A stretch of 64,000 bases of DNA from a bacterium (lineage in GTDB: Bacteria > Hinthialibacterota > Hinthialibacteria > Hinthialibacterales > Hinthialibacteraceae). The position numbers and the translations under genes were made by a program. Below the pieces are notes generated by a model. The model ran no database searches. It was not told the origin of the DNA and saw nothing but the letters and a program-made list of their open reading frames with translations. Every line of letters starts with the position of its first letter. The stretch's first letter is position 1. Positions 9,833 to 56,744 of this stretch are shown here, one piece after another. Location of the stretch: NCBI GenBank assembly GCA_016125385.1, contig WGLV01000011.1, positions 62,001-126,000 on the forward strand, read 5' to 3'.

Positions 9833-10037
9833 GTCGATTTTTATTTCAAAATTGTTGATAGCATTCGAGAAGGCGATCAAAGTCAACCGGAGTATTTAAG
9901 GAACGATATTTTCCCCGCACGGGATCATCCCGGGAAAATTTCGGTTGAATGTTGATCATTCTGGTTTACAATCCCCCCTCAAGTTACACATCCGGGAAGC
10001 CGCACAATCAAAAAAACGGGATGACAAGGATCGAAGC

Positions 10038-11291
10038 ATGAATCAACGCAAGAATAATCCGGTGGAAATAAAACGGCTTACGTGGTTTTCTCAGCGCCTT
10101 GTCTGGAGCGTCTTCTGTGTTCTGGGGATGGCGGCCGTTCCCTGCGAGGCGGAAGACTGGCCTGAGTATCATGGCCCCAACCGCGATCGTATCTCCAGCG
10201 AAACCGGCTGGATGACCTCGTGGGAGGGCGAAGGGCCCCAGGCCCTGTGGCGCGCCCGGCTCGGCCCCGGGTATTCTTCATTCGCGGTCGTTGACGGCAA
10301 AGCCTATACGATGGGCTATGACGTCAAAAACGGAGAAGACAACGTCTTCTGTTTCAACGCCGCCGATGGAACGGAAATCTGGAAGAAGGCGTACAAGTGC
10401 GAGCGAATTAATAACATGCACGAGGGCGGCCCCGGCGCGACGCCCACCGTCAACGACGGAAAAGTTTATACCATGAGCAAAGAGGCTCACTTCCGTTGTT
10501 ATAACGCCGAAGACGGCGAGCTAATCTGGGCGAAAGACCTGAAAGCGGAGATCGGCGCCAAAACGCCGACGTGGGGCTTCGCCGGATCGCCACTGGTATT
10601 GGGCGACGTTATTTTCGTGGACGTGGGCGTCATCGCGGCGTTTAACAAAACCAGCGGCGAGTTGATCTGGAAGACGAAGGATTACAACGCCGGGTATGGA
10701 ACCCAGGTCGCCTTCGAGCTGAACGGTGAAACCTGCATCGCCAACATCGACGGATTCGGTCTGGTTGTGGTCAAGGCCAAAGACGGCGCGGAAGTCTGTA
10801 CATACCGGTGGGATACGAATTACGACATCAACGCCGCCACTCCGCTGATCGACGGCGACCGCATTTTTATCTCATCCGGTTACAACAAGGGATGCGCGAT
10901 GGTGAAAATCGGCCCGGACGGCAAAACGGAAACCCTCTGGAGCAACAAGCGCATGCGTAACCACTTCAACGCTTCCGTCCTCTGGAAGGGGCATCTGTAC
11001 GGCTTTGATGAAGATGAACTCGTCTGTCTCGACGCGGAAACGGGAGAAGAAAACTGGCGGCAGAGCGGCCTGGGGAAAGGTTCGCTCATCATTGCCAGCG
11101 GGGAAATGGTGATTCTCGGGGGACGCGGCGAACTGGTTATCGCGCCCGCCGATCCATCCGGATTCAAAGCCTCAGGGCGGCAACAGATTCTTGGCGGAAC
11201 CTGCTGGACCTGCCCGGTACTGGTTGATGGACGGCTGTACGCCCGAAACGCGAAGGGCGACATGATCTGTCTGAATATGAAATCCAACTAG
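10038..11291 (+). CDS. Secreted PQQ-like beta-propeller protein (paralogue 1)
   Basis: 417 residues with a Sec signal peptide (hydrophobic LVWSVFCVLGMAAV, cleavage likely after CEA). The mature protein opens with DWPEYHGPNRDRISSETG, the start typical of outer-membrane PQQ/YVTN-like repeat proteins. Propeller blades with GKVYT and DAETGEENW-type turns then repeat. These folds are often scaffolds and need not bind PQQ. ATG 10038 follows AAGGA; the longer open frame from 9945 lacks a ribosome site. It is first of four tandem paralogues and has its own terminator. Confidence 0.85.
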   Translation: MNQRKNNPVEIKRLTWFSQRLVWSVFCVLGMAAVPCEAEDWPEYHGPNRDRISSETGWMTSWEGEGPQALWRARLGPGYSSFAVVDGKAYTMGYDVKNGEDNVFCFNAADGTEIWKKAYKCERINNMHEGGPGATPTVNDGKVYTMSKEAHFRCYNAEDGELIWAKDLKAEIGAKTPTWGFAGSPLVLGDVIFVDVGVIAAFNKTSGELIWKTKDYNAGYGTQVAFELNGETCIANIDGFGLVVVKAKDGAEVCTYRWDTNYDINAATPLIDGDRIFISSGYNKGCAMVKIGPDGKTETLWSNKRMRNHFNASVLWKGHLYGFDEDELVCLDAETGEENWRQSGLGKGSLIIASGEMVILGGRGELVIAPADPSGFKASGRQQILGGTCWTCPVLVDGRLYARNAKGDMICLNMKSN

Positions 11292-11315
11292 TTGATATGA
11301 TTGTTGTTATTTAAG

Positions 11316-11348
11316 CCACCGGCGCGGAGCCATCGCGCCGGTGGTTTT
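11316..11348 (+). terminator. Terminator after first propeller gene
   Basis: An 11-bp stem, CCACCGGCGCG (11316-11326) with CGCGCCGGTGG (11334-11344), followed by TTTT. The rest of the 319-nt gap to the next gene shows no other feature that I can support. Confidence 0.8.
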
Positions 11349-11610
11349 GATTGAGTTATGATTGATATGTTCAAATGAAAATGATAAAATGACTTAAATT
11401 ATTTAGATAGTCTGGAACAAAAATCAAATCAAGTTGGACTATTCTAACTAACGCCCGGGTCCGTCCGGTTCCTTCATCGACGAAAAATCCATCACTGCAT
11501 ACACGGCAAAAACCGATTGACGCAAAACGCCAACGCGGTCGATGTATCGCCGTATCAACTGGAATTAACTGGCTTTTCAGACTCGATACAAATTGGTAGA
11601 GAGGGATGTC

Positions 11611-12849
11611 ATGCCGCTGATGAAGATCAAAACAACGATAATCGCATGGGGTGTACTTTTCATTTGTTTCGCCCCTTTCATACCGCAAGCCTCTTCCGCT
11701 GACTGGCCTACGCGCCGGGGACTGGATCAGAACGGTTTTTCAAGTGAAACCGGCCTCATCGCCGAGTTTCCCCAGGAAGGTCCCAACGTATTGTGGCGTC
11801 AACGTATCGGAACGGGATTTTCATCAATCACGATCGCGGATGGAAAACTGTTCACCATGGGGTACATCAAAGGGAACGACGTGATTTTTTGCTTCGATCC
11901 CGTGACCGGCGACCCACAATGGACTTATGAATACCCCACCGACATTTTTGATAAATCCCATGAGGGCGGGCCCTCAACCACGCCGGTATACGCTGATGGT
12001 CGGGTCTACGCCCTGAGCCGGATCGGCCTCTTTCAGTGCGTCGACGCCGGCAACGGAGAAAAACTCTGGTCGCATGACATGGTGAAAGAGTTTGGCGCCG
12101 AGATTCCTCAGTGGGGTTTTTCAGGCTCGGCGTTCGTTGACGGCGGCCGGGTCATTATCGGGGCGGGCGTCATCGCGGCGTTCGACGCCAAAACCGGCGA
12201 TCTTGTCTGGAAGACGGACGATTACAAGTCCGGTTATTCAACGCCCAAGCCGATGACCATTCACGGCCGCCGCGTACTGGCGTTATTCGCCGGTTACGGC
12301 CTGGTTTTTGTCGACCTCAAAACCGGCGCCGAAATATCGAAGTTCAAGTGGCCCACCAAATTTGAAGTCAACGCCTGTCTGCCCCTGCTTGAAGGCGATC
12401 GCGTCTTCATTTCATCCGAGTACGGCATGGGATCGGCCATGTTGCAGGTCAATGAAGACTTTTCACTGAAAACGCTGTGGGAAACCAAAGACTTTTCCAA
12501 TCATTTTAACGGTTCGATCTGGCTTGACGGTTATCTGTATGGATACAGCGGCCACTATGGACGCAACGACGTCGATTTCCGCTGCGTTGACGCGGGGTCG
12601 GGCGATGTGATCTGGAAGGAGCCCACGGTCTCGCGCGGTTCGGTTCTTCACGCCGATGGGCGGCTGATCGCGCTGACCGGCGAGGGAGAACTGGTGCTGG
12701 TGCATCCGACGCCGGAAGGGTTTACGGAAATCTCCCGCTCTCACCTGCTGGGCGGCAAATGCTGGACCGAGCCCGCGCTCTCCAACAAAAAACTGTACAT
12801 GCGAAACGCACAGGGCGTGTTGATGTGCGTCGATCTCGGCGCCGCCTGA
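11611..12849 (+). CDS. Secreted PQQ-like beta-propeller protein (paralogue 2)
   Basis: 412 residues. A signal peptide (IIAWGVLFICFAPFIPQASSA) is followed by DWPTRRGLDQNGFSSETG. It is clearly paralogous to the preceding gene: both share the order HEGGP-PTV/TTPVY, WGFSGS and GVIAAF, and both end with a LLGGKCWT/ILGGTCWT blade and CxD/N closing strand. Those two Cys positions suggest a conserved disulfide. ATG 11611 is chosen because AGAGGGA lies just upstream; an earlier TTG in frame has no ribosome site. Confidence 0.85.
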   Translation: MPLMKIKTTIIAWGVLFICFAPFIPQASSADWPTRRGLDQNGFSSETGLIAEFPQEGPNVLWRQRIGTGFSSITIADGKLFTMGYIKGNDVIFCFDPVTGDPQWTYEYPTDIFDKSHEGGPSTTPVYADGRVYALSRIGLFQCVDAGNGEKLWSHDMVKEFGAEIPQWGFSGSAFVDGGRVIIGAGVIAAFDAKTGDLVWKTDDYKSGYSTPKPMTIHGRRVLALFAGYGLVFVDLKTGAEISKFKWPTKFEVNACLPLLEGDRVFISSEYGMGSAMLQVNEDFSLKTLWETKDFSNHFNGSIWLDGYLYGYSGHYGRNDVDFRCVDAGSGDVIWKEPTVSRGSVLHADGRLIALTGEGELVLVHPTPEGFTEISRSHLLGGKCWTEPALSNKKLYMRNAQGVLMCVDLGAA

Positions 12850-12934
12850 ATGAATGAACTCGCTCAGGACGCATTGTCAGAGGTGCGCCCGGAATGATCG
12901 TATGGAATCGGAAATAACCAGAGAAGGAAAGATC

Positions 12935-15259
12935 ATGAAACGATTTGCGGTAACACTCAGTGTGGTATGGATGGTAATCGGCCTGATGACGCCGATTCAC
13001 GCGGCGCGCGCCGCGGAAGGATGGCTTGACTGGCGCGGCCCCAATCAGAACGGGACTTCGCCTGAAACCGGTTTGCCCGACGATGTCTCCGCCGAAGGCG
13101 GAAACCTGCTCTGGACCTTCGACATGCAGGGGCGGGGAACTCCCGTCCTGGCGAACGGAACCCTCTACGTCTGGGGATATAAAGGCGCCGGCGTGACGGA
13201 AGAAAGCGCCGCCGGCCCAACTCAGCCCCGCGCCGCCCAGGCGGATCTCCGCGAATTTCTCGTCGCGCTTGATCCCTCAACCGGCGAGGAGCACTGGCGG
13301 CATGCTTTTAACGACTTTCTCAGCGATACCATCTATGAACGCTACAGCATCGGCAGCCCGGCGGTCGATCCTGAAACCGGCGATATCTTTCTGTTGACCA
13401 CGGCGGGCGAGATGGCCGCCTTCACCCCCGGCGGCGAGATGATCTGGAAAGTCTCCATGATGGAAGATTACGGCCGCCTGACCTTCCCGAATGGACGCAT
13501 CGGCGCGCCGGTGATCGAGGGCGATCTGGTGATCGTGCATGGAATCACCTCCAACTGGGGATCCGACGGTCCCGCCCGCGACCGCTTTTACGCCTATGAC
13601 AAACGCAATGGCCAACTGGTCTGGTCATCCACGCCGGGCACTCAACCCACCGACAGCTCGTTTTCGACGCCGACCATTGAAACCCGCAACGGCAAGCGCG
13701 TGTTTTACGCGGGCACGGGTTGTGGAAACATCGTCTGCGTCAACGCGCTCACCGGCGACCCCATCTGGCGGTACGAAATTTCAAACGGCGGCGTCAACTC
13801 GGGCGTACTGATCTATAAAGACTCGCTCATCGCGCTGCACGGCAACGAAAACCTCGACAACACCACCATGGGGCGCATGATCGCTATTAAACTCGGCGCC
13901 GAGCCCGGCCCCGGTGAAGAAGCCCCCAAAGTTCTCGATAAGTCTTATGAACTCTGGCGAAACGACGCGATCAGTCATTTCACCAGTTCGCCGGTGCTGG
14001 TCGGCGACAAGATCTATATGGTGGTTGAGACCGGCGAGCTGTATTGCGTCGACGCCAATAACGGCAAGACGCTATGGACGCTGAAACTCGCGAACGGTCA
14101 GTTGCACGCATCGCCGCTTTACGCGGACGGCAAACTGTATATCCCCATCGAGAACGGGACCTTCTACATCCTCAAGCCGGGAGAAAAAGGTTGTGAGATT
14201 CTCGATAAGGAACAACTCGACGGACTCTGCATCGGTTCACCGATGGCGTACGACGGCAAGATCTACGTCCATACCACCAAAAAACTCTACTGCTTCGGCG
14301 ACAGAGACGGTCATGGATTCAAACTGACCTGGCCCGAGCCCCAATGGCCCAAGCCCGGCAAGGCGGTCGCGCTTCAGATCGAACCCTCTGAAGTCATTCT
14401 TGAACCCGGTGAGACTCAGCGATTCAGCGTCAATGAGATCGACGCCAATGGGTACCCCGTGAAAGTGGCTGAGCACGTGGCGTGGGAATCGTTCGTTCCG
14501 CCCACCGCGAAAGTAAAAGCGCACATGGACGCCGCCTTCAATGATCAGGGTGAACTGGCGGCGGGCGATGACGCCAAAGTCTCAGCCGGCGCGTATCTCG
14601 CTCAAGCCGACGGGCTCAAGGGGACCATCCGCGGCCGTATTCTTCCCAAACTGCCTTTTTCGGAAAACTTCGATTCGTTCGAATTATCCGTGCCTCACGC
14701 GACTGAAAAAGACGTCAAGTTCGCGTATCCCCCGTTGCCGTGGATCGGCGCCCGCTTCAAGTGGGAGATCCGCGACCGTGAAGGGGAAAAGGTTCTGGCG
14801 AAAACGCTCGACAACAACCTGTTTCAGCGCGCCATCACGTTCATCGGCCCGCCCGAGGCGTCTAATTACACCGTGCAGGCGGATGTGCTGACCGATGGAA
14901 ACCGCCGCATGATGTCGAGCGCGGGCGTGATCAATCAACGGTACATCATCGCGCTGGTCGGCAACTGGCGCATCATCGAGGTCAGTTCAAATCACGAGCG
15001 CCTCAAGGTCAGCGCGCCTTTTGACGTGAAGCCCAACACGTGGTACACCATCAAGTCGCGCGTCGACATTAACCCCGACGGTTCGGGGGTGATTCGCGGC
15101 AAAGCCTGGCCTCGCGGTGAGGCCGAGCCGGAAGCCTGGACGATTGAGGTCCCTCACAAACACGCTCATACCGAGGGCGCGCCCGGGCTGTACGGCTTTT
15201 CGCCGCAGAGCCGGTTCCGCGTCTACGTCGACAACGTGTCGGTCACGCCGAACGAATAA
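12935..15259 (+). CDS. Secreted PQQ-like beta-propeller with C-terminal LamG-like domain (paralogue 3)
   Basis: 774 residues, nearly twice its neighbours. Signal peptide (MKRFAVTLSVVWMVIGLMTPIHA) then GWLDWRGPNQNGTSPETG and propeller repeats to about residue 470. An Ig-like linker follows (IEPSEVILEPGETQRF). The last ~200 residues form a concanavalin/laminin-G-like domain (FSENFDSFE start, NTWYTIKSRVDI, VYVDNVSV end), similar in plan to the protein at 34929. AGAAGGAAA precedes the ATG. Likely periplasmic or surface-exposed; the ligand is unknown. Confidence 0.82.
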   Translation: MKRFAVTLSVVWMVIGLMTPIHAARAAEGWLDWRGPNQNGTSPETGLPDDVSAEGGNLLWTFDMQGRGTPVLANGTLYVWGYKGAGVTEESAAGPTQPRAAQADLREFLVALDPSTGEEHWRHAFNDFLSDTIYERYSIGSPAVDPETGDIFLLTTAGEMAAFTPGGEMIWKVSMMEDYGRLTFPNGRIGAPVIEGDLVIVHGITSNWGSDGPARDRFYAYDKRNGQLVWSSTPGTQPTDSSFSTPTIETRNGKRVFYAGTGCGNIVCVNALTGDPIWRYEISNGGVNSGVLIYKDSLIALHGNENLDNTTMGRMIAIKLGAEPGPGEEAPKVLDKSYELWRNDAISHFTSSPVLVGDKIYMVVETGELYCVDANNGKTLWTLKLANGQLHASPLYADGKLYIPIENGTFYILKPGEKGCEILDKEQLDGLCIGSPMAYDGKIYVHTTKKLYCFGDRDGHGFKLTWPEPQWPKPGKAVALQIEPSEVILEPGETQRFSVNEIDANGYPVKVAEHVAWESFVPPTAKVKAHMDAAFNDQGELAAGDDAKVSAGAYLAQADGLKGTIRGRILPKLPFSENFDSFELSVPHATEKDVKFAYPPLPWIGARFKWEIRDREGEKVLAKTLDNNLFQRAITFIGPPEASNYTVQADVLTDGNRRMMSSAGVINQRYIIALVGNWRIIEVSSNHERLKVSAPFDVKPNTWYTIKSRVDINPDGSGVIRGKAWPRGEAEPEAWTIEVPHKHAHTEGAPGLYGFSPQSRFRVYVDNVSVTPNE

Positions 15260-15280
15260 TACAAGTTGAAAGAGGTTGAA

Positions 15281-16804
15281 ATGATGATTAATACCGCCTT
15301 ACGGCTTTCATGCCTGATCGCATTCGCCGCGCTTTCCGCCGCCGCGGACGACTGGCCCATGTGGGGCCGCACCGTGGACCGCGTGATGTTCTCTCCCGCG
15401 ACGCACGTAACGCTGGATTTCATTCCCGGCGACCTGAAAGAAGACAGCGATGAAGTTGACATGACCACCACCAAAAACGTGCTGTGGGTCGCCAAACTCG
15501 GCTCGCAGGCGTATGGCAACGCCACCGTCTCGGGCGGAAAGGTCTTCGTCGGCACCAATAACGAATCGCCGCGCGATCCCCGTCATCAGGGCGACCGGGG
15601 CGTCGTCATGTGTTTTGACGAAAAGACCGGCGAGTTTCTCTGGCAACTGGTCGTCCCCAAACTCGGCGCCGGCAAGGTCAGCGACTGGGAATATCTCGGC
15701 GTGTGTTCTTCGCCCACCATCGACGGTGACGTGGGATACGTCGTGACCAACCGCTGCGAGGTGGTGTGTTTTGACGTCGACGGTCTCAAAGACGGCAACG
15801 ACGGCCCCTTCCAGGAAGAAGGGCAGTATATGGCCGGCCCCGGCAACCCGCCGATGGAAGTTGACCCCAACACCGACGGCGACATCATCTGGCGCTATGA
15901 CATGCGCGATGAGCTCGGCGTTTTTCCTCACAACATCACCAGCAGCTCCACCCTGCTCGCCGATGGCCGGCTCTACGCCACGACCTCCAACGGGCAGGAC
16001 TGGTCGCATATCAATATTCCTTCGCCATTCGCTCCCGTATTGATCGTGCTTGATCCCAAAACCGGCGAACTGATCGGTGAAGAAGCCTCCGGCATCGGTC
16101 AGCGCATGTTTCACTGCAACTGGTCGTCGCCCTCGTATGGCGTCTTCGGCGGCAAACCGCAGGTGATCTTCGGCGCCGGCGACGGCTTCTGCTACGGATA
16201 CGATCCCGCCCCCGTCAAGGATGACGAAGGCTATCTGGTCTTGAAAGAACTTTGGAAATACGACTGCAATCCACCTGAATACAAGATGAAAGACGGGCAG
16301 CCCATGCGGTACCCGGCGCCGGAAGGCCCCAGCGAGATCATCGGTACTCCCGCCATTTATAACGGGAAGGTATACGTCAACATCGGGCAGGACCCGGAAC
16401 ACGGCGAAGGCGTCGGCGCGTTGCAGTGCATCGATCCCACCACCGGCAAGGGCGTGTGGACGTATAAGAAAATCCATCGTTCCATCTCGACGCCGGCCAT
16501 CGTGGACGGGTTGGTATTCGAGTCGGACTTCAGCGGTATTCTGCATTGTCTCGACGCGGAGACCGGGGAAGTGTACTGGACCTACGACACCCTCAGCCAT
16601 ATCTGGAGCTCGCCTCTCGCGGTGGATGGAAAAATTCTTATCGGCAATGAAGACGGCATTCTTACCGTGCTCGAGGCCGCCAAGGAAAAGAAAGTGGTGA
16701 AGGAAATCGAGTTCAACGCGCCGATTTACTCTACGCCCATCGTGGCGGACGGCGTGCTGTTCATCGCCACGCAGTCTCACCTCTACGCCATCGGCGGAAA
16801 CTGA
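15281..16804 (+). CDS. Secreted PQQ-like beta-propeller protein (paralogue 4)
   Basis: 507 residues. Short signal peptide (LSCLIAFAALSAAA) followed by DDWPMWGRTVDRVMFSP. Repeats with DEKTGEFLW, DPTTGKGVW and DAETGEVYW turns mark blades. The WGRT opening and the insert around NITSSSTLLADGRLYATTSNGQDW set it apart from the other three; similar proteins are annotated as pyrrolo-quinoline quinone-like dehydrogenase relatives. Only 21 nt separate it from the previous gene, so these two are probably co-transcribed. AGAGG precedes ATG 15281. Confidence 0.82.
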   Translation: MMINTALRLSCLIAFAALSAAADDWPMWGRTVDRVMFSPATHVTLDFIPGDLKEDSDEVDMTTTKNVLWVAKLGSQAYGNATVSGGKVFVGTNNESPRDPRHQGDRGVVMCFDEKTGEFLWQLVVPKLGAGKVSDWEYLGVCSSPTIDGDVGYVVTNRCEVVCFDVDGLKDGNDGPFQEEGQYMAGPGNPPMEVDPNTDGDIIWRYDMRDELGVFPHNITSSSTLLADGRLYATTSNGQDWSHINIPSPFAPVLIVLDPKTGELIGEEASGIGQRMFHCNWSSPSYGVFGGKPQVIFGAGDGFCYGYDPAPVKDDEGYLVLKELWKYDCNPPEYKMKDGQPMRYPAPEGPSEIIGTPAIYNGKVYVNIGQDPEHGEGVGALQCIDPTTGKGVWTYKKIHRSISTPAIVDGLVFESDFSGILHCLDAETGEVYWTYDTLSHIWSSPLAVDGKILIGNEDGILTVLEAAKEKKVVKEIEFNAPIYSTPIVADGVLFIATQSHLYAIGGN

Positions 16805-22599: not shown

Positions 22600-22686
22600 G
22601 TGAACGAAACAAAACGATTTGACTGGTTGGGCATCATGCTGGGGTATGCGTTTGGCCTGGCTCTTCTCTGGATCGTCATCACCTGA
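22600..22686 (+). CDS. Candidate 28-residue single-pass membrane microprotein
   Basis: A GTG-started ORF (GTG 22600, TGA 22684-22686) preceded by AAGAGGG. It encodes a short polar N-terminus (NETKRFDW) followed by one continuous hydrophobic helix (LGIMLGYAFGLALLWIVI). The segment lies alone in the gap between the alcohol dehydrogenase and the propeller gene. No homologue is recognised. The charge pattern and helix length are what one expects of a genuine membrane microprotein, but a chance ORF cannot be excluded. Confidence 0.45.
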   Translation: MNETKRFDWLGIMLGYAFGLALLWIVIT

Positions 22687-22738
22687 ACCCGCCTCCCTCG
22701 TCCCCCCCGCGCGGCGCCCAAACCGTGTAAAGGACGAG

Positions 22739-23890
22739 ATGCGTTTGCAACAGTATTTCTTCTCTCATGCGTTTTACTGGATGATGCTGGCTCTCCTGCT
22801 TGCAGCGCCGCATCCCTCTGCCCGCGCGGCGGAAGAGCCCGACTGGCCGCTGTTTCGCGGCGGCCCCAGCCAGACCGGAGTGGCTCAGGGAACCCTGCCG
22901 GATTCGCTCGCTCTCAAATGGACCTTCACGACGGAACGCCCCATTACTTCCTCCGCCGTCATCAATCACGGCAACGTCTATTTCGGATCGCAGGATGGTT
23001 TCGTCTACGCGGTCGATCTGATCACCGGAAAAAGAGTCTGGTCGTATGAAACCGGCGACGCGGTCGAGTCGCCGCCGGCCGCCATCGGAGGCCGCGTCTA
23101 TGTGGGCTCTTCCGACTTCAACCTCTACTGTCTCGACGCCGCCGATGGAACCTTGCATTGGAAATTCGAGACCAATGATAAAGTGATGGGCTCGCCCATC
23201 CTGATCGACGCGCCCGGCGGCGGATCCCAACGCGTCGTTTTCGGCAGCTACGATAGCCGCCTGTATTGCCTCGACGCCCGGTCGGGCGAAAAAATCTGGG
23301 ACTACTCCACCGATAACTACATCAACGGCTCTCCCGCGATTGAAGATGACAAAATCGTCGTCGGCGGCTGCGACGCCTATATTCATGTCGTGTCGGCCAC
23401 GGACGGCGCCGAGATTGAAGAGGTCGACGCGGAAGCCTACGTCGCCGCCACCGTCGCCGTTGAAGACGGCTTCGCCTACGTCGGCAATTATGGCAACGAG
23501 TTTCTCTGTATCGATCTGAATCAGCGTAAAGTCGCATGGCGGTTCAAGGATCGAAACTTTCCCTACTTTTCTTCCGCCGCGCTGACCGGCGACCGGGTGA
23601 TCTTTGGCGGACGCGACCGCCGCGTACATTGTCTCGACAGGAAGACCGGCGAACCGATCTGGGAGTTCCGCACGCGCGGCAAGGTGGACAGCTCGCCCGT
23701 TGTAGTGGGCGATCGCCTGATCGTCGGATCGGAAGATCGAAAATTGTACATGCTTCGCGTCAGCGATGGCGGCGAGATCTGGTCGTCTGAACTGGGAGAG
23801 GGCGTAATCGCCTCACCCGCCGTCGCGGGAGGCTGGGTGGTGATCGGCGCGGTCGACGGCGTTCTCTACGCCTTTGGGCCGGAGACTTGA
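22739..23890 (+). CDS. Secreted PQQ-like beta-propeller protein (paralogue 5)
   Basis: 383 residues with a signal peptide (FYWMMLALLLAAPHPSARA) then DWPLFRGGPSQTGVA. About seven very regular blades follow (VYFGSQDGFVYAVD, VYVGSSDFNLYCLD, VVFGSYDSRLYCLD, and so on). They are BamB-like in regularity and shorter than the four-gene array at 10-16.8 kb. AAAGGA precedes ATG 22739; the longer frame from 22619 overlaps the microprotein region. It sits inside the biosynthesis-like series, perhaps as a periplasmic scaffold. Confidence 0.85.
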   Translation: MRLQQYFFSHAFYWMMLALLLAAPHPSARAAEEPDWPLFRGGPSQTGVAQGTLPDSLALKWTFTTERPITSSAVINHGNVYFGSQDGFVYAVDLITGKRVWSYETGDAVESPPAAIGGRVYVGSSDFNLYCLDAADGTLHWKFETNDKVMGSPILIDAPGGGSQRVVFGSYDSRLYCLDARSGEKIWDYSTDNYINGSPAIEDDKIVVGGCDAYIHVVSATDGAEIEEVDAEAYVAATVAVEDGFAYVGNYGNEFLCIDLNQRKVAWRFKDRNFPYFSSAALTGDRVIFGGRDRRVHCLDRKTGEPIWEFRTRGKVDSSPVVVGDRLIVGSEDRKLYMLRVSDGGEIWSSELGEGVIASPAVAGGWVVIGAVDGVLYAFGPET

Positions 23891-35660: not shown

Positions 35661-35695
35661 AAACGGGACGGCCAGCGCCGTCCCGTTTCGTTTTT
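35661..35695. terminator. Bidirectional terminator between convergent genes
   Basis: AAACGGGACGG (35661-35671) pairs with CCGTCCCGTTT (35678-35688), 11 bp, with TTTCGTTTTT on the plus-strand side and A-rich sequence on the other, serving both the 35597 and the 35714 gene ends. Confidence 0.85.
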
Positions 35696-35713: not shown

Positions 35714-36661
35714 TTACTTCGCGCCGAGGATCGCTTCCCGCGCCGTCTTCCAGAACGCGGCGACGTCTTTGGGCGGTTTTGTTAACACCATCACGCAACG
35801 CCCGCACGGCGCAGCGATGATTTTGCCCTGATAGGAGGTTTCGGCTCTGAAGCCGCCTTTACCCAGGTCCGGCGCGTCCGCTGCGGAACCGGATTTTTCA
35901 AGAAAAGCCCGGAATTTCGCCGCGCGTTCGTTCGCCGCGTTTTCCGATTCCGCGATGGAGATGAACAACTCGCTCGGTTCGTCGCCCAGAGCGTATTCAG
36001 CACGCCACGCGGGCGACATGAACTGAAAGCCCAGAGGCGCACCCACGATCCACTTTTCTGAATTTTCGACGATGCGGTACGTGGGCAGAATCGTTTTTTC
36101 TTCAGGCAGCGATTTGTCTTTTCCGATTCGTTTCGACAGATCGGCCGCCGACGCTTTCATCAACGCCGCGCCGGCTTCATCGGGGCCGAAGTAGGACAAT
36201 TTGACGTAATAACGCCCCTGCACGAAATTGAGGATGTATTTACCGATATAGCCCTGAGCCCCCACCTCGATGAAATCGTTATTCGGCGATCGTTCCATCG
36301 AATACATTCCGAACGCGTTGAGCGGAGATCCCATGTCGTAGACGTCGACGGTTAACTCGCGGTCGCCGTTTTTCATATCGGCGTGTCCTACCGCGCTGAC
36401 GCCGTATTGTTCGAAGATCGAGGCCGCGCCGTCGATGTATTCATATAGCGTCGAGCGGCTGTAGTACGCGGGGTCTCCATCCAATTCGAGTTTCAGCGCC
36501 GGGTCGAGCGCGATCAGTTTTTCCAATTGCGCTTTCAACTCGGGCGGCACGGGTTTTTCTTCCACCGCCGGTTCGTCGCTGAATTCTTCCTGAGCGAGAA
36601 GGGGCTGCGTCCATGCGCCGATCGTCAGGGCGATACAGGCCATCCATATAAATCGTGACAC
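35714..36661 (-). CDS. Exported DUF6599-like protein
   Basis: 315 residues. Signal peptide SRFIWMACIALTIGAWTQPLLAQ. The body contains LYEYIDGAASIFEQYGV, VDVYDMGSPLNAFGMYS, GQGY-like GYIGKYILNFVQGRYYVKLSYFG and a final KPPKDVAAFWKTA. This resembles the uncharacterised DUF6599 family, found with redox modules in several phyla. GTG 36661 follows AAGGAG and leaves 11 nt after the aldo/keto reductase; the longer frame to 36763 would overlap that gene. Last gene of the iron-sulfur module. Confidence 0.7.
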   Translation of the reverse strand: MSRFIWMACIALTIGAWTQPLLAQEEFSDEPAVEEKPVPPELKAQLEKLIALDPALKLELDGDPAYYSRSTLYEYIDGAASIFEQYGVSAVGHADMKNGDRELTVDVYDMGSPLNAFGMYSMERSPNNDFIEVGAQGYIGKYILNFVQGRYYVKLSYFGPDEAGAALMKASAADLSKRIGKDKSLPEEKTILPTYRIVENSEKWIVGAPLGFQFMSPAWRAEYALGDEPSELFISIAESENAANERAAKFRAFLEKSGSAADAPDLGKGGFRAETSYQGKIIAAPCGRCVMVLTKPPKDVAAFWKTAREAILGAK

Positions 36662-36672
36662 GGTTTGACTCC

Positions 36673-37821
36673 TTATACGAACAACCGCTCCGCCGACGCC
36701 AGGCGATCGACGATTTTGATTCCGTTGGGGCAGATTTCTTCGCACTGCGCGCAGTCGTAACATGCTGAACCGCCGCGCTGATTCGAGGCCAGCTCCTGGT
36801 AGGTTTCATACGCGGTGCGATAGTCGCCCTCCTGCCCATAGTAATAATCGTTACAGCGCAACACGGTCGAGACGCGCACGCCTTGCGGGCATACCCGGCC
36901 GCACTCATCGCACATCATGCAGTTGTTGGCGCGGTTCGACTGCGCGAAGCGGTACAGCGCGCGATCTTCCTGACTGGTGAGCGTTTCATTGACGGCGGTC
37001 TGATAGGCGTCAAACATTTCGATCGAGCCGATGCCCTTCAGCACGGTGGTGACCGCCGGATTCGCGAGAATCTTCTTTAAATAAGCGATCTGGAGTTTCA
37101 GTTCTTCGGCCTTGTCGTCTTTTTCGAGGCCTTTCATGGTTTTCATCGCCATGACGCCGATGTTTTTGTTTTGCGCGGACTGCAATTCGGTTTGCAGGGA
37201 TTCAAGCGCGGGCTGGTTGAGAACCGGCATGACCAGCGAGTACATCCCGCTGTCGATGCCCGCCGCGGTGGTTTCTTTCACTTCGCCGTGGGTGGTGAGG
37301 CCGCAGTGGCGAACCTTGCCCATCTTTTTCAACGCTTCAAACGTTTCCTGAATTTTGGGGTCGGACGCCGATTTCGGATCGTGTCGGTTGAACATGAAAA
37401 AGTCGACGTAGTCGGTGTTAAGCGTCTTGAGCACTTCGTCGATCGCGCTGAGGTCATCGCGTAAAAAATTGTCCTTCAACGCGATGTAAACCTGGTCGCG
37501 GCGCGTCTTCATGACTTCGCCAAGCGTCTTGATCGATTCGCCGCCCAGGTAACTGGTCGAAATATGCACCAGGTTGACGCCCTGATCGATGCCGTAGTGA
37601 AGCGTGGGCACGTCGCTGACCAGTCCGCCCAGCGAGATCACACTGACCGGCAGGCCGCTTGAACCCATCACGCGGTATTTCATCTTTTCGTTGTAATTCA
37701 GCACCGATTTGGGATCGATGGCCGCCGTCGCGGTTCCTGACATGGCGCCCAACGCCGCGCCCGCCGCCAAACCGCTCTGTAAAAATGACCGACGATTGAG
37801 ACCTTGCATCGATTCCTTCAT
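36673..37821 (-). CDS. Tat-exported aldo/keto reductase with C-terminal [4Fe-4S] domain
   Basis: 382 residues. Tat signal NRRSFLQSGLAAGAALGA, then an AKR barrel (YRVMGSSGLPVSVISLGG start; DNFLRDDLSAIDEVLKTL; YVDFFMFNRHD; KKMGKVRHCGLTTH). The canonical AKR Asp-Tyr-Lys-His tetrad looks altered. The last ~90 residues carry C-x2-C-x2-C-x3-CP twice (CMMCDECGRVCP and CYDCAQCEEICP), so two clusters are likely. An AAGGAGAGG site precedes the ATG. Export of a ferredoxin-fused AKR next to NapGH-like proteins suggests an extracytoplasmic redox reaction of unknown substrate. Confidence 0.85.
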   Translation of the reverse strand: MKESMQGLNRRSFLQSGLAAGAALGAMSGTATAAIDPKSVLNYNEKMKYRVMGSSGLPVSVISLGGLVSDVPTLHYGIDQGVNLVHISTSYLGGESIKTLGEVMKTRRDQVYIALKDNFLRDDLSAIDEVLKTLNTDYVDFFMFNRHDPKSASDPKIQETFEALKKMGKVRHCGLTTHGEVKETTAAGIDSGMYSLVMPVLNQPALESLQTELQSAQNKNIGVMAMKTMKGLEKDDKAEELKLQIAYLKKILANPAVTTVLKGIGSIEMFDAYQTAVNETLTSQEDRALYRFAQSNRANNCMMCDECGRVCPQGVRVSTVLRCNDYYYGQEGDYRTAYETYQELASNQRGGSACYDCAQCEEICPNGIKIVDRLASAERLFV

Positions 37822-37887
37822 ATCACCCTCTCCTTACTCCCCGTTGTGTTTGGTTGCTTCTTGTTGATCCAGACGCGCGCGTCCGGT

Positions 37888-38676
37888 TTATCCGCCGTAA
37901 GGGTCTCCGCCTCCGCCGTACGGATCGCTCGTTGCCTCGCCGGATCCGCCGAACAGTCCGCTTCCGCTTTCCAGCAGCATCTGGTTTCCGGGGTGCCGCG
38001 ATTCGCCCACGCTGGTCACGTAGACGCCGGGCTCATCCTTGATGGGGCATACCGAATGGCAGATGCCGCATCCCGTGCAGAGAACGGCGTCCACGTGCGG
38101 CTGTTTGACGGTGACTTTGCTCCCGTCGCGGCGAGTAACTTCGATCTCCTGAAACCAGATCGCCTTGTTGCTGACCGGGCAGTGTTCTTCGCACACGATG
38201 CACGAGCGTTCAAACGCCCAGGGCAGGCAGCGGTTACGGTCGAAAAACGCCTGGCCGATGCGGATTTTTTTCTTTTCTTCCAGCGTCAGCTGCCGGATGG
38301 CGCCGGTGGGGCAGACCTGGCCGCAGAGCGTGCATTCATGTTCGCAATAGCTCACGTTCATGTTCAGCGCCGGCGTCCAGAAGCCTTCCACGCCCGCTTC
38401 GGTCTGGGCGGGCTGGATGACGTTGGTGATACAGACCTTCATACATTCGCCGCACCGCACGCAACGCGCCAGAAATTCATCTTCAGCCAGCGCCCCAGGC
38501 GGGCGGATGAGACCGGGGCTGTATTTTTCGCTTTCGGCGCGAGGAGAGACGCGGAACAGCAAGCCGCCCGTCACCCCCGCCATCGCGCTCGCCAGCAGGC
38601 CACGCCGGCCCAGATTGAGGCGCTCTTCTTTCGGTGGAGACACGAATCGTTTCAGCCAGCGTAAGACCGCGTTCAT
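37888..38676 (-). CDS. NapG-like polyferredoxin, Tat-exported
   Basis: 262 residues. Tat-like signal (LGRRGLLASAMAGVTGG). Four [4Fe-4S] motifs: CVRCGECMKVC, CEHECTLCGQVCP, C-x8-CIVCEEHCP and CTGCGICHSVCP, the arrangement of NapG/MauM. The C-terminus is an unusual Gly-rich repeat (DPYGGGGDPYGG). Overlaps the NapH-like stop by 4 nt; AAGGAGG precedes the ATG. It should carry electrons from the membrane quinone-oxidising NapH-like protein toward a periplasmic acceptor. Confidence 0.85.
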   Translation of the reverse strand: MNAVLRWLKRFVSPPKEERLNLGRRGLLASAMAGVTGGLLFRVSPRAESEKYSPGLIRPPGALAEDEFLARCVRCGECMKVCITNVIQPAQTEAGVEGFWTPALNMNVSYCEHECTLCGQVCPTGAIRQLTLEEKKKIRIGQAFFDRNRCLPWAFERSCIVCEEHCPVSNKAIWFQEIEVTRRDGSKVTVKQPHVDAVLCTGCGICHSVCPIKDEPGVYVTSVGESRHPGNQMLLESGSGLFGGSGEATSDPYGGGGDPYGG

Positions 38677-39623
38677 CGTTTCTCCTCCTTATCATTCGAG
38701 ACGATCCGGATGGAATTCGAAGGACAGGCCGAAACGCAGTTGTAGCAGTAGAAGCATTCCGTGGGTTTCCATCCGCCGGTGACGTGAGGATTCGCGCCGC
38801 CCTGGCAATCGGCCGCGCACAGGTTGCACCCGTTGCAATGATCTTCATCTTTCTGTACGCGCACGATGGGGTTCTTGCCGGTCACGCCCAGCAGAGCGCC
38901 CAGAGGACAGATGTAGCGGCACCAGAACCGCACCCGGAACAGGTTGAGCGCCACAATGGCGATGAACAGGACGCCGATCAGAAAGCCGCCCTGATAAAAA
39001 TACGGTTCGGGATCGAGAAAACGTTCGCGTAACACCGAGTAGACCGGTTCGGTGACGGAGGTCAGCCTGGCTGACCCCACGCCGGGGTCGGTTTCATACG
39101 CCCAGGTGAAAAAGCCGGTCAGACCGTGATTGATCGCGGGCAGGATGGATGTTGAAAACGAGCGGTAAAAAAACGAGAACGGATCGAGCCAGCCCACCGC
39201 GTTAACGCCGAGAATTCCTCCCGTCAGAAAGGCGATCAGCACGTAATACTTGGCTTTGTTCCAGCGGGTATAGCCGCCGTGGAGGATGCGGTCTTTGCGC
39301 TTCCAGTCGCGCAGGCTGGTGAAAAAGTTGTGCAGGGCGCCGAAGGGGCACGCCCAGCCGCAGAACCACCGCCCGAAGAGCAGCGTCACGCCCATTACGA
39401 TCAGCGAGAGCAGCAACGCCGCCGGAACGGTATGAGCGGCGATGAATGTGGAGATCATCACCAGCGGATCGAGTTCGAAGAAAAACGTGACCGGCCCCCC
39501 GACCTTGTCGATCGGGTGGAACGTCGTCTCCAGCAGCAGATCGAAAAAGAGGAACAGAAAAAACGTCTGGACCAGCCGGCGCAGCCAGACCACGGGATGC
39601 GTTTTCGCAAAGATGTTCGCCAT
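38673..39623 (-). CDS. NapH-like membrane ferredoxin
   Basis: 316 residues with about four to five membrane helices. CGWACPFGALHNF and CRYICPLGALLG are the C-x3-CP motifs characteristic of NapH/MauN/RdxA-type quinol-linked proteins. Two C-terminal [4Fe-4S] motifs (CNGCNLCAADC, CFYCYNCVSACP) face the cytoplasm in relatives. It likely passes electrons between quinol and the NapG-like partner. No nitrate reductase (napA) is present, so the pathway is not nitrate respiration. Confidence 0.87.
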   Translation of the reverse strand: MANIFAKTHPVVWLRRLVQTFFLFLFFDLLLETTFHPIDKVGGPVTFFFELDPLVMISTFIAAHTVPAALLLSLIVMGVTLLFGRWFCGWACPFGALHNFFTSLRDWKRKDRILHGGYTRWNKAKYYVLIAFLTGGILGVNAVGWLDPFSFFYRSFSTSILPAINHGLTGFFTWAYETDPGVGSARLTSVTEPVYSVLRERFLDPEPYFYQGGFLIGVLFIAIVALNLFRVRFWCRYICPLGALLGVTGKNPIVRVQKDEDHCNGCNLCAADCQGGANPHVTGGWKPTECFYCYNCVSACPSNSIRIVSNDKEEKR

Positions 39624-39657
39624 GATGCCTTGCGCTTCCTGAAGTGGTGAACGCCGA

Positions 39658-40587
39658 TCAGACGGTGACTTCGACCGGTTTGAGCGAGGCGTAGTCCATC
39701 GTGCCCAACCCGCGCTTAGCGGCTTCGGCCACGTAGCCGATGTCTTCGGGCTTGAAGCCCAGCTGCTCGGCTCCGAAGGCGTCGAGCGCGACCTGGTCGG
39801 TTCCCGCCGCGATGACGTCTTTGCGTTCGACGTCGTCGAGGTTGCCGCCCACCGGGCCGTTGGCCTTCAACACGCGAATCGCGTCGATGATGATCAGGTC
39901 GGGTTTTACAAAGGCGGCCAGGTCGACGAGCGTATTGGTGATATCCTGGTGATACTGGTTGCGGGAGCCGCCGATGATTCCCATCAGGTTTTTCATGCTC
40001 AGCGTCGCCTGGCTCAGGCCGTGATGTTTGACGATAGGCACGTTGATCAGCTTGTCGGCTTTGAGAATGTCTTCATAAATTTCCCATTCCTTCAAAACCT
40101 TGCCGTTGATGGGGGCTTTTTTCTTGAGTTTGCGGTCATCCATAAAGTAAACGCGCGCTCCGGCTTTTTCAGCGGCGGTCTGAATGCCCGACCGGGCGAA
40201 GGTTCGCCGCGCTTCATTGCAGGAGTTGTCGGTGACATGTACTTCTTTCGCGCCCGACTTCAGGCACATTTCAACCACCGCCGCGACCACGTCGGGGTTG
40301 GTGTTGGCCGCCTGTTCCGGCGTCCGGTCCCAGCCGATGTTCGGTTTGACGAAAACGACGTCGCCCTTCGCGATGAAGCGGTCCATGCCGCCGAGCGCCT
40401 CAATGGCTTTGCGAGTCAATTCGCCGGCCTTGGCGGGCAGTTCGTCGTCGCCTGGCGAAGCCGAGAAACGGGCGATGCTCATGCTGGGCTGGCCGGCTGA
40501 AAAAGCGATGCGCGGCGCATAGAGGCTGGCGCTGAGCAATCCACATTGAATGGCGAAAGAACGTCGGTCGATGGGGCGTTGAGTCAT
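39658..40587 (-). CDS. DUF362-domain protein, Tat-exported
   Basis: 309 residues. Tat signal DRRSFAIQCGLLSASLYA, then DUF362: KGDVVFVKPNIGWDR, VHVTDNSCNE, LKADKLINVPIVKHHGLSQATLSMKNLMGIIGG, and DAFGAEQLGF. DUF362 proteins are often fused or linked to ferredoxin-type proteins; their activity is unsettled. First gene of the module, with GAGGTGAT before the ATG and a near-palindrome 45 nt upstream. Confidence 0.85.
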   Translation of the reverse strand: MTQRPIDRRSFAIQCGLLSASLYAPRIAFSAGQPSMSIARFSASPGDDELPAKAGELTRKAIEALGGMDRFIAKGDVVFVKPNIGWDRTPEQAANTNPDVVAAVVEMCLKSGAKEVHVTDNSCNEARRTFARSGIQTAAEKAGARVYFMDDRKLKKKAPINGKVLKEWEIYEDILKADKLINVPIVKHHGLSQATLSMKNLMGIIGGSRNQYHQDITNTLVDLAAFVKPDLIIIDAIRVLKANGPVGGNLDDVERKDVIAAGTDQVALDAFGAEQLGFKPEDIGYVAEAAKRGLGTMDYASLKPVEVTV

Positions 40588-54299: not shown

Positions 54300-55265
54300 A
54301 TGAGCAAGCCCAAAGCCGGCTTTAACTGGTTCGCCTCATGCGGCGGTTGTGAAGAAGCGGTGGTCGATCTGCATGAAGCCATTCTCGACGTTGTCGCGGC
54401 GGTCGATATTGTCTTCTGGCCCTGCGCGATGGATTTTAAAAAGGACGACGTGCGCGCCATGCGGGACGGCGAGATGGACGTCTGCTTCATCAACGGCGCC
54501 ATCCGCACATCGGAAGAAGAAGAGATCGCGCACCTGCTTCGCCGGAAGACGAAAATCGTCATCGCCTTCGGCAGCTGCTCCCACATGGGCGGCATCCCGG
54601 GGCTGGGCAATCTCTTCACCCGCGACGAAATACTCGAGCACGATTTCACCCAGTCGTTCAGCGTGGTGAATCCGGAAAAAACCTATCCGCAAGAAGTGAC
54701 GAAAGTGCCCGAGGGCGAAGTAGAACTGCCGCGCTTTCTGGATTACGTCCGCTCGCTCAATCAGGTGATCGACGTCGATTATTACCTGCCCGGCTGCCCG
54801 CCGCCGGTCGCGTTGCTGCGGAACGCCGTCCAGGCGGTGCTCAGCGGCGAGCTGCCCCCCAGGGGAACCGTGCTCGCGCCCGACAAGGCGCTCTGTCAGG
54901 AATGCCCCCGGCTCGATTCCAAGCCCGACGATCTGGCGATCACTGAGTTCAAGCGCCCGCAGGAAATCATCATCGATGAAGAAAAATGCCTGCTCGCTCA
55001 AGGCCTGCTCTGTCTCGGCCCCGCGACCCGGTCGGGCTGCGGCGCGCCCTGCGTCAACGGCAACATGCCCTGCACGGGATGCCTTGGCCCCACCAGCCGC
55101 GTGAAAGATTACGGATTGTCGACGATGACGGTCTTCGCGTCGCTGTTTGAGAGCAAAGACGAAAAAGAGATCGACGAACTCGTCGACAAGATCGTCGATC
55201 CGGTGGGTTCGTTTAACCGATACAGCTTGCCCTCCACGTTTCTTCATCGTAAAGCCAACGTCTGA
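54300..55265 (+). CDS. mvhG: [NiFe] hydrogenase small subunit, MvhG-like (group 3c)
   Basis: 321 residues without a Tat signal, as expected for a cytoplasmic group 3 enzyme. The proximal cluster ligands appear in WFASCGGCEEAV, AFGSCSHMGG and LPGCPPP. The medial and distal cluster cysteines cluster around CLAQGLLCLGPATRSGCGAPC and MPCTGCLGPT. A strong GGAGGAAC site precedes the ATG. Confidence 0.92.
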   Translation: MSKPKAGFNWFASCGGCEEAVVDLHEAILDVVAAVDIVFWPCAMDFKKDDVRAMRDGEMDVCFINGAIRTSEEEEIAHLLRRKTKIVIAFGSCSHMGGIPGLGNLFTRDEILEHDFTQSFSVVNPEKTYPQEVTKVPEGEVELPRFLDYVRSLNQVIDVDYYLPGCPPPVALLRNAVQAVLSGELPPRGTVLAPDKALCQECPRLDSKPDDLAITEFKRPQEIIIDEEKCLLAQGLLCLGPATRSGCGAPCVNGNMPCTGCLGPTSRVKDYGLSTMTVFASLFESKDEKEIDELVDKIVDPVGSFNRYSLPSTFLHRKANV

Positions 55266-55280
55266 GAAAGGGGCGCGCCG

Positions 55281-56744
55281 ATGAGCCGTACCATTCACAT
55301 TGATCCCATCACCCGTCTCGAAGGTCACGGGAAAATCGATATCTTTCTGAACGACGCGGGCGACGTCGACCGCGCGTATTTTCAGGTGCCGGAACTGCGC
55401 GGGTTTGAAAAATTCGCCGAAGGGCGCGCGTGTGAAGACATGCCTCAAATCACCTCGCGCATCTGCGGCGTGTGCCCGATGGCCCATCACATGGCCGCCG
55501 CCAAGGCGCTCGACGATTTGTACAAGGTCGATCCGCCGGCGCCGGCGAAAAAACTGCGTGAACTGATCTATAACATCTTCACCGTTGAAGATCACGCTCT
55601 GCATTTTTATTTTCTCGGCGGCCCCGATTTCGTGGTTGGACCCGGCGCGCCCAAGGCCGAACGAAATATTCTCGGCGTGATCGGCAAGGTCGGGCTTGAG
55701 GTCGGCAAGCAGGTCATCGCCGCGCGCAAAGAGTTGCGCGAGTTGATCAACCGCATGTGCGGCAAGGTGATTCACCCCGTCTTCGGTCTGCCGGGCGGCG
55801 TCTCAAAACCGATGAAGAAAGAAGAACAGCAACTGTTTATCGACGCCGCCGACCGCGCGGTCGAATTCGGCAAATTCAGTCTGAAGGTATTCGACGACAT
55901 CGTGCTGGCCAACTCGCAATACGTCGACTGGATCGTTTCCGACACCTACACCCACAAGACGTATTACATGGGGCTGGTCGATGAAAACAACAAGGTCAAT
56001 TTCTACGACGGCAAGCTGCGCGTAGTGAAACCGGACGGTTCTGAATACGTCAAATTCAATCCGGGCGATTATCTCGATCACGTGGCCGAGCATGTTGAGC
56101 CGTGGAGTTATATCAAATTCTGTTATCTGAAGAACGTCGGCTGGAAGGGCTTTGAAGACGGCGAACAGAGCGGCGTGTACAGCGTGGCGCCTCTGGCGCG
56201 GCTTAACGCATCGACGGGGATGGCGACGCCGCTGGCGCAGGAAGCGTATGAGAAGATGTTCGCGACGCTGGGCGGCAAGCCGGTTCATCATACTCTCGCC
56301 AATCACTGGGCGCGGCTGGTCGAGTTGCTCTACGCCGCCGAGCGCATGAAGGAACTCGCCAACGATCCCGAGATCGCCGATCCCAACGTTCGCGCGATTC
56401 CAAAAAACAAGCCGGCGGAAGGCGTCGGCGTGGTCGAAGCGCCGCGCGGAACGCTTTTTCATCATTACAAAACCGATGATCGCGGCGTGATGACGCACGC
56501 CAACCTGATCGTTGCGACGCAGAACAACGCGGCGCGTATCGCGCTTTCCGTCGATAAGGCGGCGAAAGGGCTGATTAAGAAAGGCGAAGTGAACGACGCG
56601 CTGCTGAACATGGTCGAGATGGCGTTTCGCGCCTACGACCCGTGTCACGGCTGCGCTACTCACGCGCTGCCTGGTCAGATGCCGCTGGTGGTGCGCCTGC
56701 ACGACAGCGGGATGAACGTTGTGTCCGAGGTCAAACGAAACTGA
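55281..56744 (+). CDS. mvhA: [NiFe] hydrogenase large subunit, MvhA-like (group 3c)
   Basis: 487 residues. The N-terminal Ni ligand motif is SRICGVCPMAHH and the C-terminal one DPCHGCATHAL, which provide all four Ni cysteines. The ~25 residues after the His form the peptide normally removed by a maturation protease, whose gene follows with a one-base overlap. The subunit activates H2 and feeds MvhD and HdrA. Confidence 0.93.
   Translation: MSRTIHIDPITRLEGHGKIDIFLNDAGDVDRAYFQVPELRGFEKFAEGRACEDMPQITSRICGVCPMAHHMAAAKALDDLYKVDPPAPAKKLRELIYNIFTVEDHALHFYFLGGPDFVVGPGAPKAERNILGVIGKVGLEVGKQVIAARKELRELINRMCGKVIHPVFGLPGGVSKPMKKEEQQLFIDAADRAVEFGKFSLKVFDDIVLANSQYVDWIVSDTYTHKTYYMGLVDENNKVNFYDGKLRVVKPDGSEYVKFNPGDYLDHVAEHVEPWSYIKFCYLKNVGWKGFEDGEQSGVYSVAPLARLNASTGMATPLAQEAYEKMFATLGGKPVHHTLANHWARLVELLYAAERMKELANDPEIADPNVRAIPKNKPAEGVGVVEAPRGTLFHHYKTDDRGVMTHANLIVATQNNAARIALSVDKAAKGLIKKGEVNDALLNMVEMAFRAYDPCHGCATHALPGQMPLVVRLHDSGMNVVSEVKRN

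Follow-up and report, generated by a model that had tools for sequence, protein, structure and literature searches.

A conserved DUF362–polyferredoxin gene module suggests an undescribed redox system outside the bacterial cell

The stretch of DNA considered here (64,000 nucleotides, hereafter the window; part of a 211-kb contig, WGLV01000011.1, from a 5.5-Mb Hinthialibacterota genome) harbours five open reading frames (ORFs) on its minus strand that are predicted to encode an exported iron–sulfur (Fe-S) module. In 5' to 3' order these specify a DUF362 protein, a NapH-like protein, a NapG-like protein, an aldo/keto reductase (AKR)-ferredoxin exported by the twin-arginine translocation (Tat) pathway and a DUF6599 protein; spacing is tight and the NapH-like and NapG-like ORFs overlap by 4 bp (Table 1). 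A first-pass annotation of this DNA had proposed the same five-gene module, and the ORFs were recovered at its coordinates, apart from the DUF6599 start, with the families it had named. Its reading of Tat signals in three of the five products also held, with twin-arginine motifs in the DUF362, NapG-like and AKR proteins, as did its statement that napA is missing: the ORFs scanned in the window included no nitrate reductase. Terminator-like sites were no commoner in a stem-loop scan than in shuffled sequence, and the stem at the end of the DUF6599 gene was by far the longest.

Table 1. The five genes of the module and the adjoining stem-loop, in window positions (pLDDT, predicted local distance difference test; RR, twin-arginine residues).
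Feature	Position	Strand	Evidence
DUF362 protein, 309 aa	39658..40587	-	Pfam 3.5e-55; AlphaFold2 mean pLDDT 92; Foldseek; Tat RR8-9
NapH-like membrane polyferredoxin, 316 aa	38673..39623	-	about four hydrophobic segments and Fe-S motifs
NapG-like Tat-exported ferredoxin, 262 aa	37888..38676	-	four [4Fe-4S] motifs; RR24-25
Tat-exported AKR-fold protein, 382 aa	36673..37821	-	two C-terminal [4Fe-4S] motifs; RR10-11
DUF6599 protein, 315 aa, start revised	35714..36661	-	Pfam 2.5e-39; AlphaFold2 pLDDT 93; probable Sec signal
12-bp stem-loop just past the DUF6599 stop, possible terminator	35661..35688		stem-loop scan

Conservation was assessed in genomes that included 14 of the window phylum and 396 of the Acidobacteriota. 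Sixty-eight NapG-type loci were examined at length; these were picked by NapG similarity (one batch by LarC status) and never by their neighbours, and 3 kb was taken as the linkage distance. DUF362 lay within this distance of NapG in 58 of the 68 loci, compared with 25 for DUF6599 and 10 for the AKR; the constant core is therefore DUF362 with NapH/NapG, often joined by the AKR or DUF6599 as accessories. All five components fell within 3 kb in nine loci from three phyla (the window, L037, L167, L168, L172, L174, L175 of the Planctomycetes, L181 and L233). Linkage among these families is thus conserved beyond the window, and chance clustering was rejected given its recurrence in three phyla. The first-pass annotation had tied the electron chain both to an exported AKR and to DUF362; this stands for DUF362, whereas the AKR, which does carry its two [4Fe-4S] motifs, is a partner at few loci.

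Four genomes of the window family (G003, G004, G005 and G006) keep the DUF362-NapH-NapG trio in the same order with an AKR of the strict clade at a separate locus, where it is followed by DUF6599 in the first three; G002, which is 96% complete, has neither the trio nor the strict-clade AKR. Divergent Tat-AKRs of G005, G006 and G009 likewise precede DUF6599, making AKR-DUF6599 a recurring pair. The module had earlier been described as a complete quinol-linked extracytoplasmic redox pathway; its parts do look quinone-linked and their linkage is conserved, but completeness is unsupported, as relatives split the trio from the AKR-DUF6599 pair. Upstream of that pair in G003 and G004 (L065, L066) lie three genes that resemble HpnC-HpnD-HpnE squalene/hopanoid genes, by eye and not by hidden Markov model.

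Among the 396 Acidobacteriota genomes the strict-clade AKR was found in two. CSMAG_733 (L037) has all five genes together with two sub-blocks swapped, and in the other genome the contig stops within DUF6599. Both AKRs nest within the window-phylum clade of the tree, which suggests that the cassette was transferred jointly, as a unit. Parabacteroides distasonis, too, has an annotated DUF362-polyferredoxin pair. One record labelled as a plasmid of this species (NZ_OY725750.1; L219) carries tgt, lptF/G and other housekeeping genes and may be a chromosome fragment. Our literature search returned no paper covering both DUF362 and NapH, and none covering DUF6599.

The window DUF362 protein scored 187.6 bits against PF04015 (cut-off 24 bits) and matched DUF362 alone, with no match to the Lar_N/DUF2088 sequence family; DUF362 and DUF2088 share Pfam clan CL0471 (PMC11770544). 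When an AlphaFold2 model built from 38 homologues was compared with the PDB using Foldseek, 19 chains were returned at E<=1e-3, and every one belonged to the LarA family or was closely related to it in fold. They comprised lactate and malate racemases, broad-spectrum LarA, LarA-like enzymes with a single histidine and a Thermotoga protein (4nar) that is a LarA match by sequence. The exported DUF362 protein is accordingly predicted to have the fold of LarA, the lactate racemase, a point which the first-pass annotation had missed.

Residues K81, P82, N83, D120, K187, H189, K199, N200, R209, H213 and D235 were invariant in 42 exported DUF362 proteins; R88 was present in 40 of these and D178 of the window protein was also marked as conserved. 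In LarA, R75, K184 and H200 bind the cofactor while D72, H108, H174 and K298 are catalytic (PMC7583248). The H189-x9-K199 spacing of DUF362 is exactly that of LarA H174-x9-K184; K199 aligns with K184 without a gap, and H189 falls on H174; H213 lies near H200, at 14 residues past the lysine against 16 in LarA, and R88 would be the counterpart of R75, an assignment made without superposition. A first hhalign comparison of DUF362 with LarA, built on 38 sequences, ran in another register beyond the histidine; when 75 sequences were used, the unguided alignment had as its best local segment one that set H189/K199 on the LarA His/Lys. Distant DUF362 paralogues encoded by the window genome show the K-H-K-N pattern as well, and it is therefore a family-wide trait, not one specific to the module. 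By comparison with the LarA superfamily (PDB 5huq, 6c1w, 9eia, 9q3j), the likeness lies in the predicted fold and the Lys/His/His positions; DUF362 differs in being Tat-exported, shorter (309 aa versus about 430) and tied to an electron-transfer chain.

The NapH-like protein has two CxxxCP and two CxxCxxCxxxC motifs with several transmembrane segments. It matched PRK09477 at 2.2e-23 (82.8 bits; cut-off 234) and the NapG-like protein matched PRK09476 at 1.2e-28 (100 bits; cut-off 269), both below equivalog level; the NapH-like protein also scored with NosR. Domain layout, Fe-S motifs and a Tat-exported NapG are shared with the NapGH of periplasmic nitrate reductase, but the window pair falls short of the NCBI equivalog cut-offs and its partners are DUF362, the AKR and DUF6599. 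Together with the lack of napA among the scanned window ORFs, this led us to reject electron supply to nitrate reductase. We likewise rejected as a functional motif the Gly-rich DPYGGGG tail of the NapG-like protein, which had been singled out as unusual: it is not conserved among relatives, being long in L028, a few residues in L029 and L030, and absent in L037.

Relatives of NapG were present in 113 of the 396 Acidobacteriota genomes, mostly as NapH-NapG fusions of about 500-600 aa, and of 37 fused proteins (Acidobacteriota and Parabacteroides), 36 carried a twin-arginine motif followed by a hydrophobic stretch where the two parts join. Dual Sec-Tat export has been shown experimentally for the polytopic polyferredoxin of strain MLMS-1 (Q1NSB0; Tooke et al., 2017, PMC5449189), which similarly joins a NapH-type membrane part to a NapG-type Tat-exported part. 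The window encodes these halves as two genes, and the likeness to Q1NSB0 is one of layout; the passages of the 2017 paper that were consulted deal with targeting and mention no DUF362, AKR or DUF6599 partner.

The window AKR matched Aldo_ket_red at 3.7e-14 (52.9 bits; cut-off 24) and its cluster motifs are of the form CxxCxxCxxxCP. In place of the catalytic tetrad D-Y-K-H it has H86-Y91-K116-N145 (H-Y-K-N). The tetrad was altered in all ten members of the window AKR clade (support 99/93), with His for Asp and with Asn, Pro, Glu or Gly for His (sisters H-Y-K-E/G/P), and all eight cluster cysteines were kept throughout. D-Y-K-H was intact in most other aligned Tat-AKRs; L073/L074 and one of the L172 AKRs show separate changes. 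The residue check proposed in the first-pass annotation thus shows replacement throughout the window clade, and the guess of exported AKR chemistry was probably wrong: with two of the four catalytic residues lost, the window protein is probably not a normal AKR, and it probably moves electrons or binds a ligand instead of carrying out NADPH-dependent reduction. An AKR barrel with a C-terminal two-cluster ferredoxin region is shared with the COG1453-like 4Fe-4S aldo/keto reductases; Tat export and the clade's loss of D-Y-K-H set the window protein apart.

Two further Tat-AKR arrangements were observed. At L172:3802-5031 the Tat-exported AKR adjoining DUF362 has a tetrad that is very degenerate (H-W-I-H), whereas that of a second AKR in the same cluster is intact. 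Five Acidobacteriota genomes (L106, L107, L108, L110 and L112) have a separate Tat-AKR lineage beside a DapA-like aldolase, a cobalamin-adenosyltransferase-like gene and a small conserved protein, all named by eye.

Translation of DUF6599 very probably begins at GTG 36661 and not at 36763, as an AAGGAG Shine-Dalgarno sequence there overlaps the AKR stop codon TAA. The protein has no Tat signal and is probably secreted by the Sec route; several relatives are lipoprotein-like. Its AlphaFold2 model had no PDB match at E<=1e-3, and since the best matches were poor in TM-score we make no claim on its fold from structure. DUF6599 would be an exported accessory.

Taken together, a recurrent Fe-S wire with partners, one of them with the predicted lactate racemase fold and key residues, suggests an undescribed redox system acting outside the cell. 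We give about even credence to reading the five-gene module as an extracytoplasmic, quinone-linked oxidoreductase whose catalytic subunit is the LarA-fold DUF362 protein. The NapH-like protein would exchange electrons with the menaquinone pool and the NapG-like protein would carry them on the periplasmic face via its four [4Fe-4S] clusters; path and direction are conjectural, quinol oxidation being the NapGH precedent. Tat-exported DUF362 would be the constant catalytic partner, perhaps acting on an organic hydroxy-acid or sugar-type substrate with a cofactor held covalently on K199, and its export by Tat suggests that any such cofactor is loaded in the cytoplasm. The window-clade AKR with its two clusters would have ceased to be a normal carbonyl reductase and could act as an adaptor for substrate binding or electron transfer, with DUF6599 as an exported accessory or binding subunit. 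We counted in favour of this oxidoreductase that the AKR, NapHG and LarA families each consist of redox or hydride-transfer proteins. Several points weigh against it. TM-scores of DUF362 to LarA are moderate (0.35-0.50), the DUF362-LarA profile score is not significant alone (P ~0.07) and LarA H108 has no clear counterpart in DUF362; some LarA-like enzymes have only one catalytic His (PMC12611868). The AKR is near few NapHG loci, and NapHG is missing from the surroundings of many Tat-AKRs. Further, the genomes are metagenome-assembled and some are fragmented.

A more specific proposal, which we regard as rather unlikely, is that DUF362 is a true nickel-pincer-nucleotide (NPN) enzyme, loaded by LarB/LarC/LarE in the cytoplasm, exported folded via Tat and carrying out net hydride-transfer redox through NapHG; it would be the first exported or electron-chain-coupled NPN enzyme. 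The predicted LarA fold speaks for it, as do R88, K199 and H213, which would correspond to the NPN-binding R75, K184 and H200, and H189, which would correspond to the catalytic H174, all kept in nearly all close members. So too does larE-larC-larB directly beside NapHG-DUF6599-DUF362 in two Acidobacteriota genomes (G405 and G362; L183:3664-6690 and L184:9660-12570), but these genomes are related and the linkage perhaps reflects one event. At these loci the cluster reads NapHG-DUF6599-DUF362-DUF362; in the L183 region a GH127 glycosidase is present too, as is a divergent second DUF362 paralogue.

LarC was found in all 14 genomes of the window phylum and LarE in the window genome, but canonical LarA is present in the phylum and could alone account for its Lar genes. 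Among Acidobacteriota, LarC was commoner with NapG (98 of 113 NapG-positive versus 183 of 283 NapG-negative genomes; Fisher p 8e-6, ignoring kinship). Thirteen of the 15 NapG-positive genomes without LarC, however, also lacked an above-cut-off LarE, and most of these 13 have a DUF362 protein with every motif residue. A Planctomycetes genome (G018) has all five components and no above-cut-off LarE; in Bacteroides ihuae, included as a control, DUF362 was matched and LarC was not; and the missing H108 counterpart counts here as well. Strict NPN dependence is weakened by the 13 genomes without LarC and LarE. DUF362 may possibly hold another cofactor by its lysine, or none, and the broader idea of a new redox class outside the cytoplasm, NPN-dependent or with some other lysine-tethered cofactor and passing electrons to or from the quinone pool via the dual Sec-Tat polyferredoxin, strikes us as likewise rather unlikely.

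A function in periplasmic repair or maturation was also considered, by analogy with MsrPQ repair or with NosR/NapGH supplying an enzyme: quinol electrons passed through NapHG would hold exported proteins or cofactors in the reduced state, and there would be no metabolic substrate. PMC5449189 compares NapHG and the fused polyferredoxin with MsrPQ as Sec-Tat pairs, the NapH-like protein scores with NosR, and the core lies in very diverse neighbourhoods (tRNA-ligase, cell-envelope and housekeeping genes), unlike a pathway operon. We nonetheless judge this improbable: the DUF362 partner has a predicted racemase-type enzyme fold, GH127 and a sodium-solute symporter are neighbours at some loci, and no repair-type enzyme is linked.

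Least probable, and in our view very unlikely, is an ordinary reductive branch of the kind supposed in the first-pass annotation, from quinol through NapHG to an exported AKR reducing a carbonyl, with DUF362 and DUF6599 auxiliary; a [4Fe-4S] AKR is linked to NapHG in ten loci and D-Y-K-H is intact in most Tat-AKRs (including the NapHG-linked L167, L168, L175 and L181), but Asp and His of the tetrad are missing from the window clade, the constant partner is DUF362 and not the AKR, and there is no NADPH outside the cytoplasm unless bound before export.

Elsewhere in the window, a NuoB-like small subunit adjoins a NiFe-hydrogenase large-subunit-like protein (54300-56744), a second redox module 14 kb away, and PQQ_2/BamB-type beta-propeller proteins are encoded at 9945-16804 and 22619-23890 (four in tandem and one more).

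None of the papers searched reports a function for DUF362, a large family. For the NapH-NapG polyferredoxin the export route was known but the partner was not, and it is now seen in a conserved exported unit with DUF362. As Parabacteroides distasonis, a culturable gut bacterium, has the DUF362-polyferredoxin pair, the function is directly testable. A lysine-tethered cofactor, if true, would explain the need of DUF362 for Tat export; and if that cofactor were of the NPN type, NPN chemistry would extend from racemisation to respiration and a widespread domain of unknown function would gain a role.

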